From positions 2,418,001 through 2,482,000 of the forward strand of contig NZ_CP037940.1 of the NCBI RefSeq assembly GCF_004358325.1: 64,000 nt of DNA, given 5' to 3'. Made by a program: the position numbers and the translations under genes. The notes beneath the pieces are model-generated. The model did not search any database, was not told the DNA's origin, and was given only the letters and a program-made list of their open reading frames with translations. Shown here piece after piece: positions 2,498-42,748 of this stretch (within the stretch, counting starts at the first letter, position 1; every line of letters starts with the position of its first letter). The stretch comes from Periweissella cryptocerci (lineage in GTDB: Bacteria > Bacillota > Bacilli > Lactobacillales > Lactobacillaceae).

Positions 2498-3233
2498 GGC
2501 TCTGTTCCGTCTGACGTGGATTTTATAAAATGTGATGAGATGTATGAGGCCACTGCGTGCCTGAAAATCACATTGTGCACCGAGATGGAAGCACATGCCC
2601 AAGCCACGTGCTTATGCCTGAGGTACGGCAACGCAAAACATTCCAGCAGTTTGTTTTCAACAAACAACTGAATCTAATCAAAAACCGATTAGATTAGCCT
2701 TCCAGGCTGAATGTCTGTCTTGGGCAATTCGGGATAGCTGGCAGTCTAATGGCTAAAGCCAAAAGACTGCTCACATTTGTAGCTACGCTGGACAAATAAG
2801 GCCCGGTCGGCTCTACCCTCAGCGACAAACTTGACACATGGTGTCAAGTTCGTCCCATCACGGTGTAAAGCCTGTCGGCCACAAAGTGATTTTCAGTCAC
2901 CCCGCTAGATAAGCGTGGAATTATTGATTACCGCTAAACTTGAAGCGACAAGGATTACGGCATATTACTAGTCAGACTGGCTGCTCAAACTAACGAAGTG
3001 GCTGGAAACAGGCTGGACTTTAGCTCGCACCGTGATGGCATAATCAGTAACGGTTTTCGTTACTGATTATGGATTTGTGAAGATGGTTAGCGCGTTAGCG
3101 AACCAAGCTTCGCAAACATTTGAAGACCGCACTGTGGCTTCAAATGCTTGTCTTCCATTACGGTATCCAGACTGGTTCTAGACACGTAGTGGGAATCAAT
3201 CTGGGACACATATCCAAATTCCACGCTAGAAAA
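2498..3233 (+). repeat. Structured intergenic repeat, form B, copy 1 (about 735 bp)
   Basis: The left end is GGCTCTGTTCCGTCTGACGTGG and the right end is AAATTCCACGCTAGAA, forming imperfect terminal inverted repeats like form A. The first half has an internal inverted repeat (CTGAAAATCACATTGTG at 2561-2577, 16 of 17 matching 2880-2896), a hairpin at 2741-2770, the box CCCTCAGCG (2816-2824), a hairpin 2828-2837/2841-2850 and the box CGGTGTAAAG (2861-2870). The second half begins near GCGTGGAATTATTGATTACCGC and carries the hairpin TAATCAGTAACG/CGTTACTGATTA, and so may be a second module. A shorter copy lies at 25097-25613. Short ORFs here are not credible genes. Confidence 0.78.
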
Positions 3234-17045: not shown

Positions 17046-17084
17046 TAATGTATTTCGATACACATGTAATCCATTCATCCATTA

Positions 17085-17256
17085 GTGAGTCAAGAAATAG
17101 TGAGAACTTGGCAGGCTCTGGTGGGATACATGATCAATTACTATCAACAATTGCATACTATAATGAGGATTAGCCAACCAGGTTAATCGAATTAGGGTGG
17201 TACCACGATAGCAATCGTCCCTGGTGTTCTTTTTTAAGAACGCTGGGGGCTTTTAT
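17085..17256 (+). ncRNA. T-box leader of ileS
   Basis: The conserved T-box AGGGTGGTACCACG is at about 17194-17207, followed by a terminator hairpin (CCCTGGTGTTCTT/AAGAACGCTGGGGG, 17219-17249) and T-rich tract. Upstream, ATAGTGAGAAC and ACTAT arms form a Stem I, with ATC and ATT (both Ile codons) in the 3' side of the probable specifier loop. Uncharged tRNA-Ile is expected to favour antitermination. Confidence 0.9.
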
Positions 17257-24497: not shown

Positions 24498-25052
24498 ATG
24501 CTTGCTCATATTCTTGAAGAAACTATTCAACCAAAGGCACCCACAAACATTAACCCAAACATTGCCTTCCGTTTGGCGGAAGCGAATGATTTACCAATTT
24601 TTACTGCTATTTATAATGAATCGATTCGGACCCGGGGTATTACGACGGATCTTGAAGAACAAACAGTTGAACAACGGCGCGGCTGGTTTGAAGCGCATCA
24701 AAATGATCCGCGGCATCCCATCTTTGCGGCAGTGGAAAATAATCAAGTTGTAGGTTATGGCTCACTTAGCGTGTATCGTCCGCGGAAAGGGGTGGACGCC
24801 GTGGCTGAAATTTCTTACTATTTTGATCATAGCGTTCGCGGTAAAGGCTTCGGCTCAGCCATTATGGATTACTTGATTTCATATGCACAAACGCAAGGTT
24901 TTAGTAATTTATTGGCGTTTGTGAATGGCTTGAACGAAACTAGCGCCGGGTTGTTAACCAAATTTGGCTTTGCTGAATGGGGCCGCTTTCCCGGAATTAG
25001 TTTTGATGGAGAATTTTTCCATGATCAAATTATCTTTGGTCGTAAAATTTAA
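24498..25052 (+). CDS. GNAT family N-acetyltransferase, paralogue 1
   Basis: Acetyl-CoA-dependent acetyltransferase of the phosphinothricin-acetyltransferase-like group, 184 residues. The GNAT fold shows in IAFRLAEANDLPIFTAIYNESI (about 23), EISYYFDHSVRGKGFGSAIMDYLI with the acetyl-CoA pyrophosphate loop RGKGFG (about 115), and GLLTKFGFAEWGRFPGISFDGEFFHDQIIFG. GGAGA precedes the ATG. Closely similar to the gene at 25673, from which it is separated only by a form B repeat; the pair is a local duplication. Substrate unknown. Confidence 0.88.
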   Translation: MLAHILEETIQPKAPTNINPNIAFRLAEANDLPIFTAIYNESIRTRGITTDLEEQTVEQRRGWFEAHQNDPRHPIFAAVENNQVVGYGSLSVYRPRKGVDAVAEISYYFDHSVRGKGFGSAIMDYLISYAQTQGFSNLLAFVNGLNETSAGLLTKFGFAEWGRFPGISFDGEFFHDQIIFGRKI

Positions 25053-25672: not shown

Positions 25673-26179
25673 ATGACGGAATCAGCTTACGAGATTCGCT
25701 TGGCTATCAATAATGATTTACCACGATTGACGGATATTTATAATCAGTCAATTCGGGCCCGGGGCATCACCGCGGATTTAGATGAGCAATCGGTTGAACA
25801 GCGGCGAGGTTGGTTTGAGGAACATCAAAATAATTTGCGCTATCCGTTATATGTGCTTGTGGCTGACGGTGCGGTGCAAGGATATGGGTATCTTGGACCA
25901 TATCGAACTAGGCGGAGCTTTGACCAAACGGCGGAAGTTTCATATTATTTCGATCACCAAGTGCGTGGTCGTGGATATGGATCTGCGATGCTACAGCATT
26001 TAATTGAAATTGGACGCGAACAAAAAATGACAACTTTAATTGCGGCGATTTTTAATACAAACACGCAGAGTGCTGGTTTATTAAAAAAATTCGGCTTTGC
26101 AGAATGGGGTCGGTTACCGCGAATTAGTTTTGACGGTGAAAACTATCAAGATCAAGTTTATTACGGTCGAGAAATATAA
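25673..26179 (+). CDS. GNAT family N-acetyltransferase, paralogue 2
   Basis: 168 residues, aligning over its length with the gene at 24498 (shared blocks include QRRGWFE, EVSYYFDHQVRGRGYGSAML, and LLKKFGFAEWGR). The acetyl-CoA loop is RGRGYG (about 108). It lacks the 15-residue N-terminal extension of paralogue 1 and has only a weak ribosome site. It probably acetylates a small amine; substrate unknown. Duplication is inferred from tandem arrangement. Confidence 0.88.
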   Translation: MTESAYEIRLAINNDLPRLTDIYNQSIRARGITADLDEQSVEQRRGWFEEHQNNLRYPLYVLVADGAVQGYGYLGPYRTRRSFDQTAEVSYYFDHQVRGRGYGSAMLQHLIEIGREQKMTTLIAAIFNTNTQSAGLLKKFGFAEWGRLPRISFDGENYQDQVYYGREI

Positions 26180-26186
26180 TGAGATT

Positions 26187-26205
26187 TTAACGATAGTATC
26201 GTTAA
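26187..26205. promoter_or_regulatory. Perfect 19-bp palindrome, candidate TetR-type operator
   Basis: TTAACGATAGTATCGTTAA is a perfect odd palindrome centred on 26196. Its core ACGATAGTATC is the complement of GATACTATCGT upstream of the TetR gene at 22166. It is not followed by a T-run, so a terminator role is unlikely. It lies about 50 bp upstream of the brnQ leader promoter. Confidence 0.45.
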
Positions 26206-26254
26206 TTAAATGGGAATAATTTTATTCTTTTGCCATAATATTTTAATTTAGTTC

Positions 26255-26284
26255 TTGCAATGCCAACTGGTACGTGGTTAAATA
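26255..26284 (+). promoter_or_regulatory. Candidate promoter of the brnQ leader transcript
   Basis: TTGCAA (26255-26260) and an AT-rich -10-like TTAAAT/TAAATA at about 26278-26284 with spacing near 17, placing the transcript start just before the leader peptide. Confidence 0.4.
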
Positions 26285-26330
26285 ATAAACAACAAAGATA
26301 TTAAATATTAAAAAAGGATGGCTTGAACTT

Positions 26331-26393
26331 ATGAACTCAACTAACTTCACACAAGTTAATAACATTATTATCAGCGCAATTATTATTATTTAA
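26331..26393 (+). CDS. Isoleucine-rich leader peptide of brnQ
   Basis: A 20-codon ORF, MNSTNFTQVNN followed by III-SA-IIII and TAA, with seven isoleucine codons in the last nine. AAGGATGG lies about 10 nt upstream. The ORF is too short and too biased to be a functional protein. It sits in the leader of a branched-chain amino acid transporter and is followed by two hairpins, the second with a T-run. This matches ribosome-mediated attenuation: stalling at Ile codons when charged tRNA-Ile is scarce would let transcription proceed into brnQ. Confidence 0.75.
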   Translation: MNSTNFTQVNNIIISAIIII

Positions 26394-26519
26394 TAATGAT
26401 GGGCTGACAATTGTTGTTGCTCATCATGAAGAAATTCACATGATGAGCAGCTGAGAATATTCAAGTCAAACTAAGGACCTGATTAGCTGTGGAATACTAC
26501 AGCTAATCGGGTCCTTTTT
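26372..26519 (+). promoter_or_regulatory. Transcription attenuator of brnQ
   Basis: Three pairings are visible. (i) TCAGC in the Ile region can pair with GCTGA at about 26403-26407. (ii) TGCTCATCATG (26418-26428) pairs with CATGATGAGCA (26439-26449). (iii) An 18-bp terminator stem AAGGACCTGATTAGCTGT (26473-26490)/ACAGCTAATCGGGTCCTT (26499-26516) with T-run. The segment GCAGCTGA (about 26447-26454) can also pair with TTAGCTGT in the 5' arm of the terminator, giving a possible antiterminator. The choice between forms by the ribosome position is inference. Confidence 0.7.
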
Positions 26520-26592
26520 ATTTATTCAGAATCTTTAGGAAATTTTGCAATCATAATCGTTTGGGTGTTTATCAAGGAAAGAGGTAGTTATT

Positions 26593-27966
26593 ATGGATCA
26601 AAAGCAACACAATTGGCGCAATACAGTTTTGGTAGCTTCATTAATTTTCGGGATGTTCTTTGGGGCTGGTAATTTAATTTTTCCGGTTCAACTTGGTCAA
26701 TTAGCTGGTGGAAATTGGCTCTTGGCAACAGCGGGGTTTTTGGTTACGGGGACGTTGGTACCATTTCTAGCGATGCTCGCAGTTAGTGTGACACGTAGTA
26801 AAGGCGTGTTTGATATCGCCAAACCAGTCGCACCGTGGTTTGGCACGGTATTCTTAGTAATGCTGCATTTAACAATTGGTCCGTTTTTTGGAACTCCGCG
26901 GACTGCCGCCACTGCATTCTCGATGGGAGTGGCACCTTTATTACCAAAGGGCATGCAAACCGTTGGAATGCTCATTTTTTCAGCAGTGTTCTTCGGCTTA
27001 GCATATTTTCTTAGTACTAAAGAGGCCAATGTGGTTGCTTGGATTGGTAAGTATTTGAATCCGTTATTTTTAGTTTTGCTAGTCGGAACTTTATTGTTGG
27101 CAGTTTTTTTACCAATGGGAAACTTACACCAACAGGTTGGGGAAGCATACCAAAGTAACGCATTCTTCCAAGGATTCTTGGATGGTTACAATACAATGGA
27201 CGGAATTGCCTTATTGGCTTTAGCTGTAACCGTTGTTTATGCAATCAAGGGTCTAGGCTATCATGAAGATGCTGTGCCCAAAGTCGTAGCAAAGTCAGGC
27301 TTGCTCGCAATTGCTGCTGAAGTTGTTTTGTACACTGGCTTAGTATTACTTGGTACATCAAGTTTGGGAACATTTAAAGCCGCTGCAAATGGTGGGGATG
27401 CGTTCGCTCAAATTGTTGCACATTACACTGGTAATTTTGGAACTTTATTCACGGGACTGGTTGTTACATTGGCTGTCTTCACAACCGCAATGGGGCTCTT
27501 TGCTTCATTTGCTCAAGATATGCACAAGACGTTTCCGAAAGTCAGTTATAAAAATTTCTTACGGGCAATTGCAGTAGGTTCATTTGTAACTGCGAATGCC
27601 GGATTGACCAACATTATTACCTGGGCAGTACCAGTTTTGATGTTGATGTATCCACTGGCCTTGTCACTAATCACGTTGTCATTGTTGGCGAAGTACTTTA
27701 ACCGGGCGAGTGTTGTGTATCGAGCCATGATGTTGTTTGTGGCTGGACCTGCGTTGCTAGACGCATTGGCTAACTCGCCATTGGTCACTAAGGTTTGGGC
27801 GGCGGGCCTTGTTAACGAATATCACCATATCGTACCTTTCGCCTCAATGGGATTAGGCTGGGTATTACCCGGAGCCTTTGGATTCGTATTAGGTTATGGC
27901 TTGTACAAATTCAGCCCAGAATTACAGACGGGTGGTGTGATTTTGCACTCAGCTGATGTTGAATAG
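26593..27966 (+). CDS. brnQ: Branched-chain amino acid transport system carrier protein BrnQ
   Basis: Cation-coupled importer of Leu, Ile and Val in the membrane. It is 457 residues with about twelve helices. It begins VLVASLIFGMFFGAGNLIFPVQLGQLAGGNW, the BrnQ signature with the unwound ion-binding region, and has IGPFFGTPRTAATAFSMGV (about 95) and a second conserved GLGYHEDAVPKV region. AAGAGG precedes the ATG. The isoleucine leader peptide and terminator upstream suggest regulation by Ile-tRNA charging. A bidirectional terminator follows. Confidence 0.95.
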   Translation: MDQKQHNWRNTVLVASLIFGMFFGAGNLIFPVQLGQLAGGNWLLATAGFLVTGTLVPFLAMLAVSVTRSKGVFDIAKPVAPWFGTVFLVMLHLTIGPFFGTPRTAATAFSMGVAPLLPKGMQTVGMLIFSAVFFGLAYFLSTKEANVVAWIGKYLNPLFLVLLVGTLLLAVFLPMGNLHQQVGEAYQSNAFFQGFLDGYNTMDGIALLALAVTVVYAIKGLGYHEDAVPKVVAKSGLLAIAAEVVLYTGLVLLGTSSLGTFKAAANGGDAFAQIVAHYTGNFGTLFTGLVVTLAVFTTAMGLFASFAQDMHKTFPKVSYKNFLRAIAVGSFVTANAGLTNIITWAVPVLMLMYPLALSLITLSLLAKYFNRASVVYRAMMLFVAGPALLDALANSPLVTKVWAAGLVNEYHHIVPFASMGLGWVLPGAFGFVLGYGLYKFSPELQTGGVILHSADVE

Positions 27967-39706: not shown

Positions 39707-41011
39707 ATGGCGTTTGTCGATCAAGTTAAAGTTGAAGTAAAAGCCGGAAGTGGTGGCGATGGTATCGTCTCATTCCGTCGTGAAAAGTTTGTTGATATGG
39801 GTGGTCCTTTCGGGGGTGACGGTGGTCGTGGTGGTTCAATTATCCTCCGCGTTGATGAAGGGCTACGGACTTTGATGGATTTCCGTTACAACCGTCACTT
39901 CCGCGCTGAACATGGTGATAAGGGTGGTACCAAGGGTATGACCGGCCGTTCAGCCAAAGACATGTATATCAAAGTCCCACAAGGAACTACAGTTTCTGAT
40001 GCTGATTCTGGTCAAGTGCTCGTTGATTTGACTGAAAACGGTGATGAATTTGTGATTGCGCGTGGTGGTCGTGGTGGTCGTGGTAATATTCACTTCGCGA
40101 CACCTGCCAATCCTGCACCAGAACTTGCCGAAAATGGTGAACCTGGTCAAGTACGTAACATTAAATTAGAATTGAAAGTTCTGGCCGACGTTGGTTTGGT
40201 TGGTTTCCCATCTGTTGGTAAATCAACATTGCTCTCAATCGTAACCTCTGCTAAGCCTAAGATTGCTGAATATCACTTTACGACCTTGGTTCCTAACTTG
40301 GGAATGGTACGTTTGGATGATGGTCGCGACTTTGTTATGGCCGATTTACCTGGTTTGATTGAAGGTGCGTCTACTGGGGTTGGACTTGGGATTCAGTTTT
40401 TGCGTCACGTCGAACGGACGCGGGTTATCTTGCACGTGATTGATATGAGTGGGATTGAAGAAACTGACCCATATGAAAACTACGTTAAGATTAATGAAGA
40501 ATTGAAAAATTATGATCCATCAATTCTTGATCGCCCACAAATTGTGGTGCCTTCAAAGATGGATATGCCAGATGCTGAAGAAAACTTGAAGAAGTTTGAA
40601 GACCGCTTGGATGAAGATCCATATTTGGCAGAACGCCCATTAGTGATGCCAATATCTGCATTGACACGTCAAGGTTTAACACCATTGTTGGCAACGACGG
40701 CGGACTTACTCGACGTAACACCTGAATTCCCAATGAAGGGGATTGACGCTGATGTTGAAGATGCTATGTATGAACTTGATGAGGACGAACCAGCCTTCAC
40801 AATTTCAACTGGTCAATATGGCGAATGGGTCTTGAGTGGTGAAAAGATTGAAAAACTTTACCGCATGACTAACACAACCACGGATGAAAGCTTGATGCGT
40901 TTTGCGCGTCAACTTCGTGGAATGGGTGTTGATGATGCCTTGCGTGAAGCTGGAGCACAAAACGGGGACGAAGTCTTGATTGTCGACTTCCGCTTTGAAT
41001 TCTCAGATTAA
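39707..41011 (+). CDS. obg: GTPase Obg (CgtA)
   Basis: Ribosome-associated GTPase for 50S assembly and stress control. It is 434 residues: glycine-rich Obg fold at 1-158, G domain with [11 protein letters not shown] (G1, about 168), DLPGLIEGA (G3, about 215), and a C-terminal OCT domain ([25 protein letters not shown]). ATG at 39707 is chosen because AAGGAG lies just upstream; an ATG 27 nt earlier has no ribosome site. Terminator at 41021. Confidence 0.96.
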
Positions 41012-41020
41012 ATATTTAAT

Positions 41021-41057
41021 GCAGCACTTTCAGTTTTTCTGGAGGTGCTGTTTTTTT
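41021..41057 (+). terminator. Terminator after obg
   Basis: GCAGCACtt/aggTGCTG stem followed by seven T. Confidence 0.75.
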
Positions 41058-41088
41058 GTTTTTACTTATTTGACTTATAAGAAAGTAT

Positions 41089-41276
41089 GGCTCTGTTCCG
41101 TCTGACGCGGGATTGAATAAACTTGGTCACTTCGTTAGTTAGGAATAATGTAACTAGCGAAAACAGTTACCGACCACAGGCCGTAGTAGCATGGAAAAAA
41201 GCTGAGAACCATTAGAGCCCCAGTAATTCGATGATTGAAAAGTGCGGAAACGACAATCCCACGCTAGAATAAATAG
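41089..41276 (+). repeat. Structured intergenic repeat, form A, short copy (about 188 bp)
   Basis: Both termini of form A are present (GGCTCTGTTCCGTCTGACGCGGGATT; CAATCCCACGCTAGAATAAATAG). The interior from the first stem arm to CACTTCGTTAGTTAGG is deleted, so only the ends and the right-hand 150 bp remain. Its survival suggests that the ends are the mobile unit. Confidence 0.75.
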
Positions 41277-42468: not shown

Positions 42469-42539
42469 GCGAAGTTAGTTTAGTGGTAAAATAACAGCTT
42501 CCCAAGCTGTGGTCGCGGGTCCGATTCCCGTACTTCGCT
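42469..42539 (+). tRNA. tRNA-Gly (anticodon CCC)
   Basis: Cloverleaf: acceptor GCGAAGT/ACTTCGC, anticodon stem ACAGC/GCTGT with loop TTCCCAA (anticodon CCC), T arm CGGG-TCCGATT-CCCG, discriminator T. CCA is not encoded. A TATAAT box lies about 20 nt upstream. The argS T-box starts about 30 nt downstream. Confidence 0.93.
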
Positions 42540-42567
42540 TTTCAGACTAATAAAGTCATTCAATTTA

Positions 42568-42748
42568 AGGATAACAATCAGCGTTCGCTCAGCAAGTTTG
42601 GGGTGTTGTGAGCCAGACCGAATTAGATTGTTGGCGCGTTAATTGATAATAATTGCATATCTAATGAGTGGAATTTATTTCAATTAGAGTGGTACCACGG
42701 GTAAAAACTCGTCTCTTGCAGTAAAATGTGAGTGACGAGTTTTTTTGT
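42568..42748 (+). ncRNA. T-box leader of argS
   Basis: The conserved T-box AGAGTGGTACCACGG is at 42686-42700, followed by terminator AACTCGTC/GACGAGTT with seven T. Stem I base AACAATC/GATTGTT encloses a loop holding AGACCGA, which contains Arg codons CGA and AGA, consistent with regulation by tRNA-Arg. Confidence 0.9.

Follow-up and report, generated by a model that had tools for sequence, protein, structure and literature searches.

Organization of the brnQ leader region

The stretch of DNA analysed here (64,000 nt; the window) contains a brnQ gene that is preceded by a short open reading frame (ORF), a first hairpin and an intrinsic terminator (Table 1). The stop codon of the leader ORF occupies positions 26391-26393 and is followed by in-frame TAA and TGA codons. 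Seven of the last nine codons encode Ile (26364-26372 and 26379-26390), and the 20-codon Ile-rich ORF described in the first-pass annotation is read directly from the DNA. It is the one ATG-initiated ORF of 10-40 codons with at least seven Ile codons in nine in the whole window, and no such ORF occurs in 40 dinucleotide shuffles of the window. Two GNAT acetyltransferase genes, alike by eye, lie upstream of the leader (24498-25052 and 25673-26179).

Table 1. Positions of the leader elements, brnQ and the T-box matches in the window.
Feature	Positions	Strand	Description	Basis
Shine-Dalgarno-like element of leader ORF	26314-26321	+	AAGGATGG	sequence
Segment X	26320-26327	+	GGCTTGAA; 5' arm of outer helix Z, between Shine-Dalgarno-like element and ATG	fold; X:Y coevolution
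Leader peptide ORF	26331-26393	+	MNSTNFTQVNNIIISAIIII; 20 codons, ATG at 26331	read from sequence
Segment A core	26371-26375	+	TCAGC within Ile codons	A:B coevolution
Segment B	26396-26407	+	ATGATGGGCTGA; directly 3' of stop codon; partner A or C	coevolution, folds
Segment C	26416-26428	+	5' arm of first hairpin; partner D, or B via 26419-26427	C:D coevolution
Segment D	26439-26454	+	3' arm of first hairpin plus GCAGCTGA (26447-26454), possible partner of E	D:E coevolution
Segment Y	26460-26467	+	TTCAAGTC; 3' arm of outer helix Z	fold, coevolution
Segment E	26473-26492	+	5' arm of intrinsic terminator; 26483-26490 pairs with D in putative antiterminator	
Segment F	26497-26519	+	3' arm of terminator and T-run	E:F coevolution
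brnQ	26593-27966	+	branched-chain amino acid carrier (LIVCS), 457 aa; putative regulated gene	Pfam PF05525 388.9 bits; TIGR00796 329.8 bits (cut-off 243.4)
T-box match before ileS	17051-17225		41.4 bits, E 9.4e-6	Rfam RF00230, gathering 93
T-box match before argS	42550-42719		53.5 bits, E 7.2e-9	Rfam RF00230, gathering 93

The leader RNA is divided into eight arms, named X, A, B, C, D, Y, E and F from 5' to 3'. The terminating state consists of X:Y (helix Z), A:B, C:D and E:F, and the antiterminating state consists of B:C and D:E. The first hairpin contains 13 base pairs (26416-26428 with 26439-26451), and the terminator stem contains 20 base pairs, counting G-T pairs (26473-26492 with 26497-26516), followed by the T-run. 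Both elements had been recognized in the first-pass annotation, but the hairpin spans 26416-26451 rather than 26418-26449, and the stem is not the 18-bp stem described there. The two alternative pairings proposed there hold as they were given. In D:E, the 3' flank of the first hairpin pairs with TTAGCTGT (26483-26490) of the terminator 5' arm, and in A:B, TCAGC of the Ile codons pairs with GCTGA (26403-26407).

The earlier three-stem structure is nevertheless incomplete because B:C and Z are missing from it. The B:C helix joins 26396-26404 to 26419-26427 (ATGATGGGC:GCTCATCAT) through 9 bp and is the true alternative to the first hairpin. Helix Z, formed between 26320-26327 and 26460-26467, joins the leader start to the antiterminator strand. 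The predicted fold of the region (26320-26530) has an energy of -82.8 kcal/mol, compared with -37.5 +/- 4.3 kcal/mol in 200 shuffles (z -10.6). No Rfam family matches here at its gathering score. With an E limit of 1, seven matches are obtained in 26000-26700, each with a score far under the gathering score of its family.

Distribution of the leader and its downstream genes

A BrnQ protein scan of one genome per GTDB species yielded 36 loci. A related leader with an Ile/Val run is present at all 30 brnQ loci with 59-78% identity, which belong to Leuconostoc, Oenococcus, Fructobacillus, Convivina, Weissella, Periweissella and two Lactobacillaceae records; 18 of these loci are in the R1 alignment and match by construction, and 12 are outside it. 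The leader is absent from all six brnQ loci with 36-41% identity. At seven Leuconostoc loci of the 30, the leader lies upstream of a hydratase-like gene that is followed by brnQ. The ilvD gene is missing in five of five genomes of the window's genus (controls, 14/14), and uptake of Ile (branched-chain amino acids, BCAA) should therefore matter in this genus.

Of 301 genomes of the family, 66 match R1, a covariance model built from 19 brnQ leaders and used at E <= 1e-3; the matching genomes represent 20 of 40 genera. The matches were read in part, and the weakest include chance matches. The earlier statement that ribosome-stalling BCAA leaders are known in only a few Firmicutes understates their frequency in Lactobacillaceae. 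Three family matches at 35-37 bits (L132, L134 and L137) were rejected as chance matches without a convincing Ile/Val leader, and another match in the window's own genome (L145, 25.2 bits) has no Ile leader by eye. Within the window, the R1 match at 41003-41169 (23.4 bits) is also a chance match, with a terminator but no Ile ORF; the gene before it, named by eye, is presumably an Obg-like GTPase gene. An exact DNA pattern for III-S-III, with matches in 70 of 151 genomes, was dropped, since the reversed pattern that served as its control matched many as well.

Alignment A3 contains 83 rows from 72 sources, which were chosen among the fetched loci with no random draw and with several weak family matches left out. 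Four rows were excluded (the reverse-strand matches L031 and L034 at 2888-3049, L029 with a terminator masked in the record, and L129 with A and B unaligned), and 79 leaders were retained. The first gene behind the leader is brnQ in 34 cases and an MHS-type MFS transporter gene in 19. A hydratase gene comes first in 13, with brnQ next in eight of them, and a gene for an EIIC-like protein (PF13303) in four, one of which is followed by a hydratase gene and one by ilvE. Two leaders precede gshA, and one each precedes ilvD, a beta-glucoside PTS IIABC gene, another MFS gene and a gene for an SSF-like protein. Overall, 76 of the 79 leaders are followed on their own strand by a matched gene no more than 2.5 kb away; three lack one.

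The leaders before ilvD and the PTS IIABC gene are located at 2486-2629 of L112 and 2496-2653 of L111, respectively, and the latter gene is unexpected for Ile control. The leaders before the GshA-like genes (L034, 5943-6088; L031, 5943-6084) encode a peptide that is rich in Ser, Val and Thr, not in Ile (MIKSASINLTVSVSSVTH), and this gshA-associated module may have changed its amino acid, judging from the encoded peptide. In L119 (425-3998), three attenuators are arranged in tandem within 4 kb, each before a different transporter-like gene. Attenuator copies without a same-strand gene behind them are found in L122, L123, L125 and L129, with L122 resembling L125 and L123 adjoining a phosphoketolase gene (XFP) in the opposite direction; such copies may be relics or leader RNAs that stand alone.

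Among 295 genomes drawn from the order, nine match R1, of which six are outside the family. Three of these six, all in one family, have real leaders with IISIIIR-type peptides, located before genes for Peripla_BP_6 proteins (LivJ-like by domain; L150, L152 and L155) and, in L158, for an IlvE-like protein of aminotransferase class IV. The remaining three genomes match by chance; among the seven out-of-family matches read, L151, L153 and L154 have no convincing Ile/Val leader.

Sequence conservation in the leader peptide

The core of the leader peptide is IIISIII or IIISAIIII, and 75 of the 79 leaders contain at least five Ile or Val residues within nine codons. Ala, Lys, Leu and Pro are also observed in some leaders. 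Val outnumbers Ile in 10 of the 79 leaders, including the VVVSVV peptides ahead of second brnQ copies in Fructobacillus, where Val is encoded by GTC codons with the frame and the stop codon retained. F. ficulneus carries an Ile-type leader before one brnQ gene (L033) and a Val-type leader before another (L029). Loss of the Ile run with regulation kept, which the first-pass annotation had named as evidence against its reading, was not seen in close relatives; in leaders without the Ile block, Val mainly takes its place (L029, L030 and L032).

The Ser codon AGC, which is part of TCAGC, is located opposite GCTGA of segment B. In L119, L118 and L121, the Arg codons CGC or CGA replace Ser AGC, and segment B then contains GCGGA. 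RNA pairing thus appears to determine which residue stands within the Ile run. The leader peptide as a whole looks to be under selection as a peptide.

Coevolution of the competing helices

Coevolution was analysed with an alignment-free arm-swap test, in which the duplex energy of an arm with its own partner is compared with that obtained with partners from other leaders. The test was applied to 44 representatives of the 79 leaders (0.78 similarity cut). Helix Z (X:Y) has an energy of -11.1 kcal/mol with its own partners versus -6.9 kcal/mol with swapped ones (z -12.6), and A:B (z -12.8), B:C (z -12.9), C:D (z -14.0), D:E (z -5.4) and E:F (z -23.4) behave likewise, each, as for Z, with 0 of 2000 permutations reaching the observed value. 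Ten control arm pairs range from z -1.9 to +1.8 in the same 44 leaders, and kinship alone is therefore insufficient to explain the signal; the D:F control is borderline (z -1.9, 72 of 2000 permutations). By this test, all six helices coevolve across the 44 leaders, and the ten control pairings do not.

All six helices also hold within the 12 MHS-type leaders (D:E, 7/2000), and five hold within the 22 brnQ-type leaders. In the latter group D:E is not significant (z -1.0, 304/2000) because D and E hardly vary there. Column counts in 19 brnQ-type leaders gave 94.1% paired cells for A:B, C:D and E:F, with both sides changed in 49 cells versus 13.6 in shuffles (0/500). For B:C and D:E, 85.8% of cells are paired and both sides are changed in 17 cells versus 7.5 in shuffles (0/500); the number of B:C and D:E pairs with a change on both sides is reached in 27 of 500 shuffles, and further pair types in these column counts are not above shuffles (140 and 143 of 500). 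Segment B aligns poorly between leaders of different types in A3, and column counts of B:C on this alignment were therefore replaced by the swap test.

No coevolution is seen between the leader start (X) and E (z 1.3) or F (z -0.4), or between E and the spacer Y taken by itself (z -0.9). X does coevolve with D (z -6.2) because Z runs into D. Z and D:E have at least 3 nt in common in 42 of the 44 leaders and therefore compete; given the lack of coevolution between Y and E, these shared nucleotides belong to the end of D.

Ribosome spacing and folds with a masked ribosome

The distance from the first Ile/Val codon to B has a median of 29 nt (IQR 27-31.5, range 24-50), and that from the stop codon to B has a median of 2 nt (IQR 0.5-3, range -9 to 8), in 79 leaders whose arms were cut by model positions, which limits the spread; the automatic leader picks are doubtful for L125 (wrong frame) and L126 (start). 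With these spacings, B would be covered by a ribosome at the stop codon but not by one at the first Ile codons. The arrangement fits a ribosome footprint.

Partition-function folds were computed for the 44 leaders with the ribosome masked and F not yet made. With the ribosome stalled at the first Ile codon, the expected pairs are 6.7 for B:C, 4.9 for C:D and 6.5 for D:E; with the ribosome at the stop codon, they are 0.05 for B:C (B masked), 9.75 for C:D and 4.8 for D:E. Upon stalling, D:E gains more than one pair in 21 of 44 leaders and B:C gains more than two in 30 of 44. For the window leader stalled at the first Ile codon with E made, B:C has 0.2 and C:D 15.0 expected pairs. B:C wins only when D is not yet made (10.2-10.7 expected pairs, stalls at codons 12-17), and after F has been made, the terminator prevails for all ribosome positions that were modelled. 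Stalling therefore tips the fold to the antiterminator on average over the 44 leaders but not at equilibrium for the window leader, which would require kinetic trapping because C:D and the terminator win at equilibrium.

Proposed mechanism of brnQ attenuation

The region very probably represents a ribosome-mediated transcription attenuator that controls brnQ and senses charged tRNA-Ile. Judged by its comparative anatomy, it would be an attenuator of the his/trp type with six segments, and it shows these structural features of that kind: a leader ORF rich in Ile codons, an intrinsic terminator, a conserved, mutually exclusive antiterminator and suitable ribosome spacing. The comparative evidence favours control of brnQ by the position of the ribosome on the Ile codons, as the first-pass annotation had proposed, and the proposal draws support from the presence of the leader at 30 of 30 loci, from the coevolving, competing helices and from the spacing.

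We infer that the leader is translated, that the signal is the charging of Ile-tRNA, that the RNA switches and that Z has a role in this, and the following sequence of events is proposed. The ribosome would reach the leader Ile codons while RNA polymerase is still within the leader. When Ile-tRNA is plentiful, the ribosome would run to the stop codon and cover B a few nucleotides downstream; C:D and then E:F would form, and transcription would end before brnQ. When Ile-tRNA is scarce, the ribosome would stall on the Ile codons and cover A, leaving B free. Free B would pair with C as soon as C is made, and D, being single, would pair with E, whereby the terminator would be delayed or blocked and brnQ would be transcribed. 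If the leader is not translated, Z, A:B, C:D and E:F would all form, and brnQ would be off. Z, in which the leader start pairs with a strand that overlaps D and extends immediately 3' of it, would compete with D:E, and we tentatively suggest that it locks untranslated leaders in the off state.

In the his operon attenuator of E. coli and Salmonella, segments A-F form A:B, C:D and E:F for termination and B:C and D:E for antitermination, with the stalled ribosome covering A. The leader described here shares this six-segment chain, the same terminating and antiterminating pairings and the covering of A by a stalled ribosome. It differs in its Ile (or Val) codons, in mostly preceding transporter genes and in the extra outer helix Z, and the likeness described is one of architecture.

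Ribosome-dependent attenuation needs coupled transcription and translation. Such coupling has been reported to be weak in Bacillus subtilis, and the many natural ribosome-dependent leaders in a related order therefore offer a way to test the question of coupling. From the presence of the module, roles connected with Ile are also predicted for the MHS-type MFS transporters, the EIIC-like protein and the hydratase, whose substrates are unassigned.

Among Firmicutes, the Listeria monocytogenes rli60 leader of ilv-leu is likewise a BCAA-codon leader with a ribosome-mediated mode, which is reported to be supported in Listeria by start-codon, ribosome-binding-site and terminator mutants (PMC5864092). 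It differs from the brnQ leader in serving BCAA biosynthesis and in its four-segment model, as presented there (PMC5864092). The rli60 family (RF02414) scores 25.5 bits on the window leader (E 0.47), below its gathering score of 60. The ilv-leu attenuator of S. aureus, for which experimental support is reported, combines a BCAA-rich leader peptide of 26 residues with a terminator; in contrast to the brnQ leader, it is described as controlling biosynthesis, mainly in response to Leu, through a proposed antiterminator that pairs with the poly-U tail (PMC5794164). The C. glutamicum ilvBNC leader resembles the brnQ leader in encoding a BCAA leader peptide and in having terminator, antiterminator and anti-antiterminator hairpins, but it belongs to a biosynthetic operon of an actinobacterium and has three hairpins, and no counterpart of Z was found in the account of it (PMC11857589). 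BCAA-rich leaders of Lactobacillales are also cited, as predicted ones, for ilv of Lactococcus lactis and Streptococcus, but are described before biosynthetic genes (PMC5794164 and PMC6123439).

A full-text search (titles and abstract starts; subscription journals mostly outside its coverage) returned, among the matches listed, no description of an attenuator with a leader peptide, either ahead of brnQ or in Leuconostocaceae. The main-text terms of PMC3766115 and of PMC2965389 include neither brnQ nor Leuconostoc. The B:C switch, the conserved helix Z, the leaders of Val type and the occurrence of the module before a range of uptake genes are new here. It is possible, although we advance it with reserve, that these leaders constitute an undescribed Ile/Val attenuator class in two Lactobacillales families. 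In this class, Z would be a third sensing element in which the initiation region takes the antiterminator strand and the RNA reads both whether translation has begun and where the ribosome stalls, and the module would have been copied before a BCAA-scavenging set (BrnQ, the MHS-type transporter, the EIIC-like protein with IlvE, the hydratase and LivJ-like binding proteins).

Alternative explanations and T-box matches in the window

The brnQ gene could be controlled by a T-box leader, which senses tRNA without a ribosome, as for ileS and argS. The window contains T-box matches before both of these genes (Table 1), whose products are class I tRNA synthetases by Pfam, and TGGTACGTGG (26268-26277) bears a faint resemblance to the core motif of T-boxes, TGGNACCGCG. 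BrnQ-family (LIVCS) transporters are also treated in a T-box survey, whose main-text terms include neither Leuconostoc nor Oenococcus (PMC2494555). However, the library that finds the ileS and argS T-boxes does not match RF00230 anywhere in 26000-26700, even with E allowed to reach 1, neither TGGTACGTGG nor TGGNACCGCG occurs in the 1100 nt upstream in any of 30 relatives, and a T-box gives no reason for a conserved ORF of Ile/Val codons. A T-box before brnQ is thus highly improbable.

Much of the Ile run can pair with RNA directly 3' of the stop codon (repeats I4-I6), and RNA pairing alone could therefore favour ATT repeats. The Ile-rich ORF would then be a by-product of A/T-rich pairing strands in a riboswitch or a protein-binding leader. 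This is hard to reconcile with the GTC-encoded VVVSVV peptides that retain the frame and the stop codon, with the Ser-to-Arg codon changes matched in B (L119, L118 and L121) or with the tight spacing between the stop codon and B; moreover, no Rfam family reaches its gathering score, and the matches admitted by an E limit of 1 fall far short of theirs. We consider such a by-product very unlikely. The copies without a downstream gene (L122, L123, L125 and L129) would suit a leader peptide or short leader RNA that acts in trans behind a constitutive terminator, and a trans role is on record for the leader peptide peTrpL (PMC7298713). In such a case, the conserved B:C and D:E helices, which compete with C:D and the terminator, would be purposeless, and the same-strand genes behind 76 of the 79 leaders point to action in cis; a trans-acting leader is accordingly scarcely probable. 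Attenuation of brnQ by a ribosome on the Ile codons is the reading that we prefer.

The T-boxes that the first-pass annotation had placed before ileS and argS are matched, but only below the Rfam gathering score (41.4 and 53.5 versus 93 bits), and annotation at the gathering score would therefore miss both. The argS T-box match is immediately preceded by a gene for tRNA-Gly with the anticodon CCC (42469-42719 together), which is perhaps co-transcribed with it.
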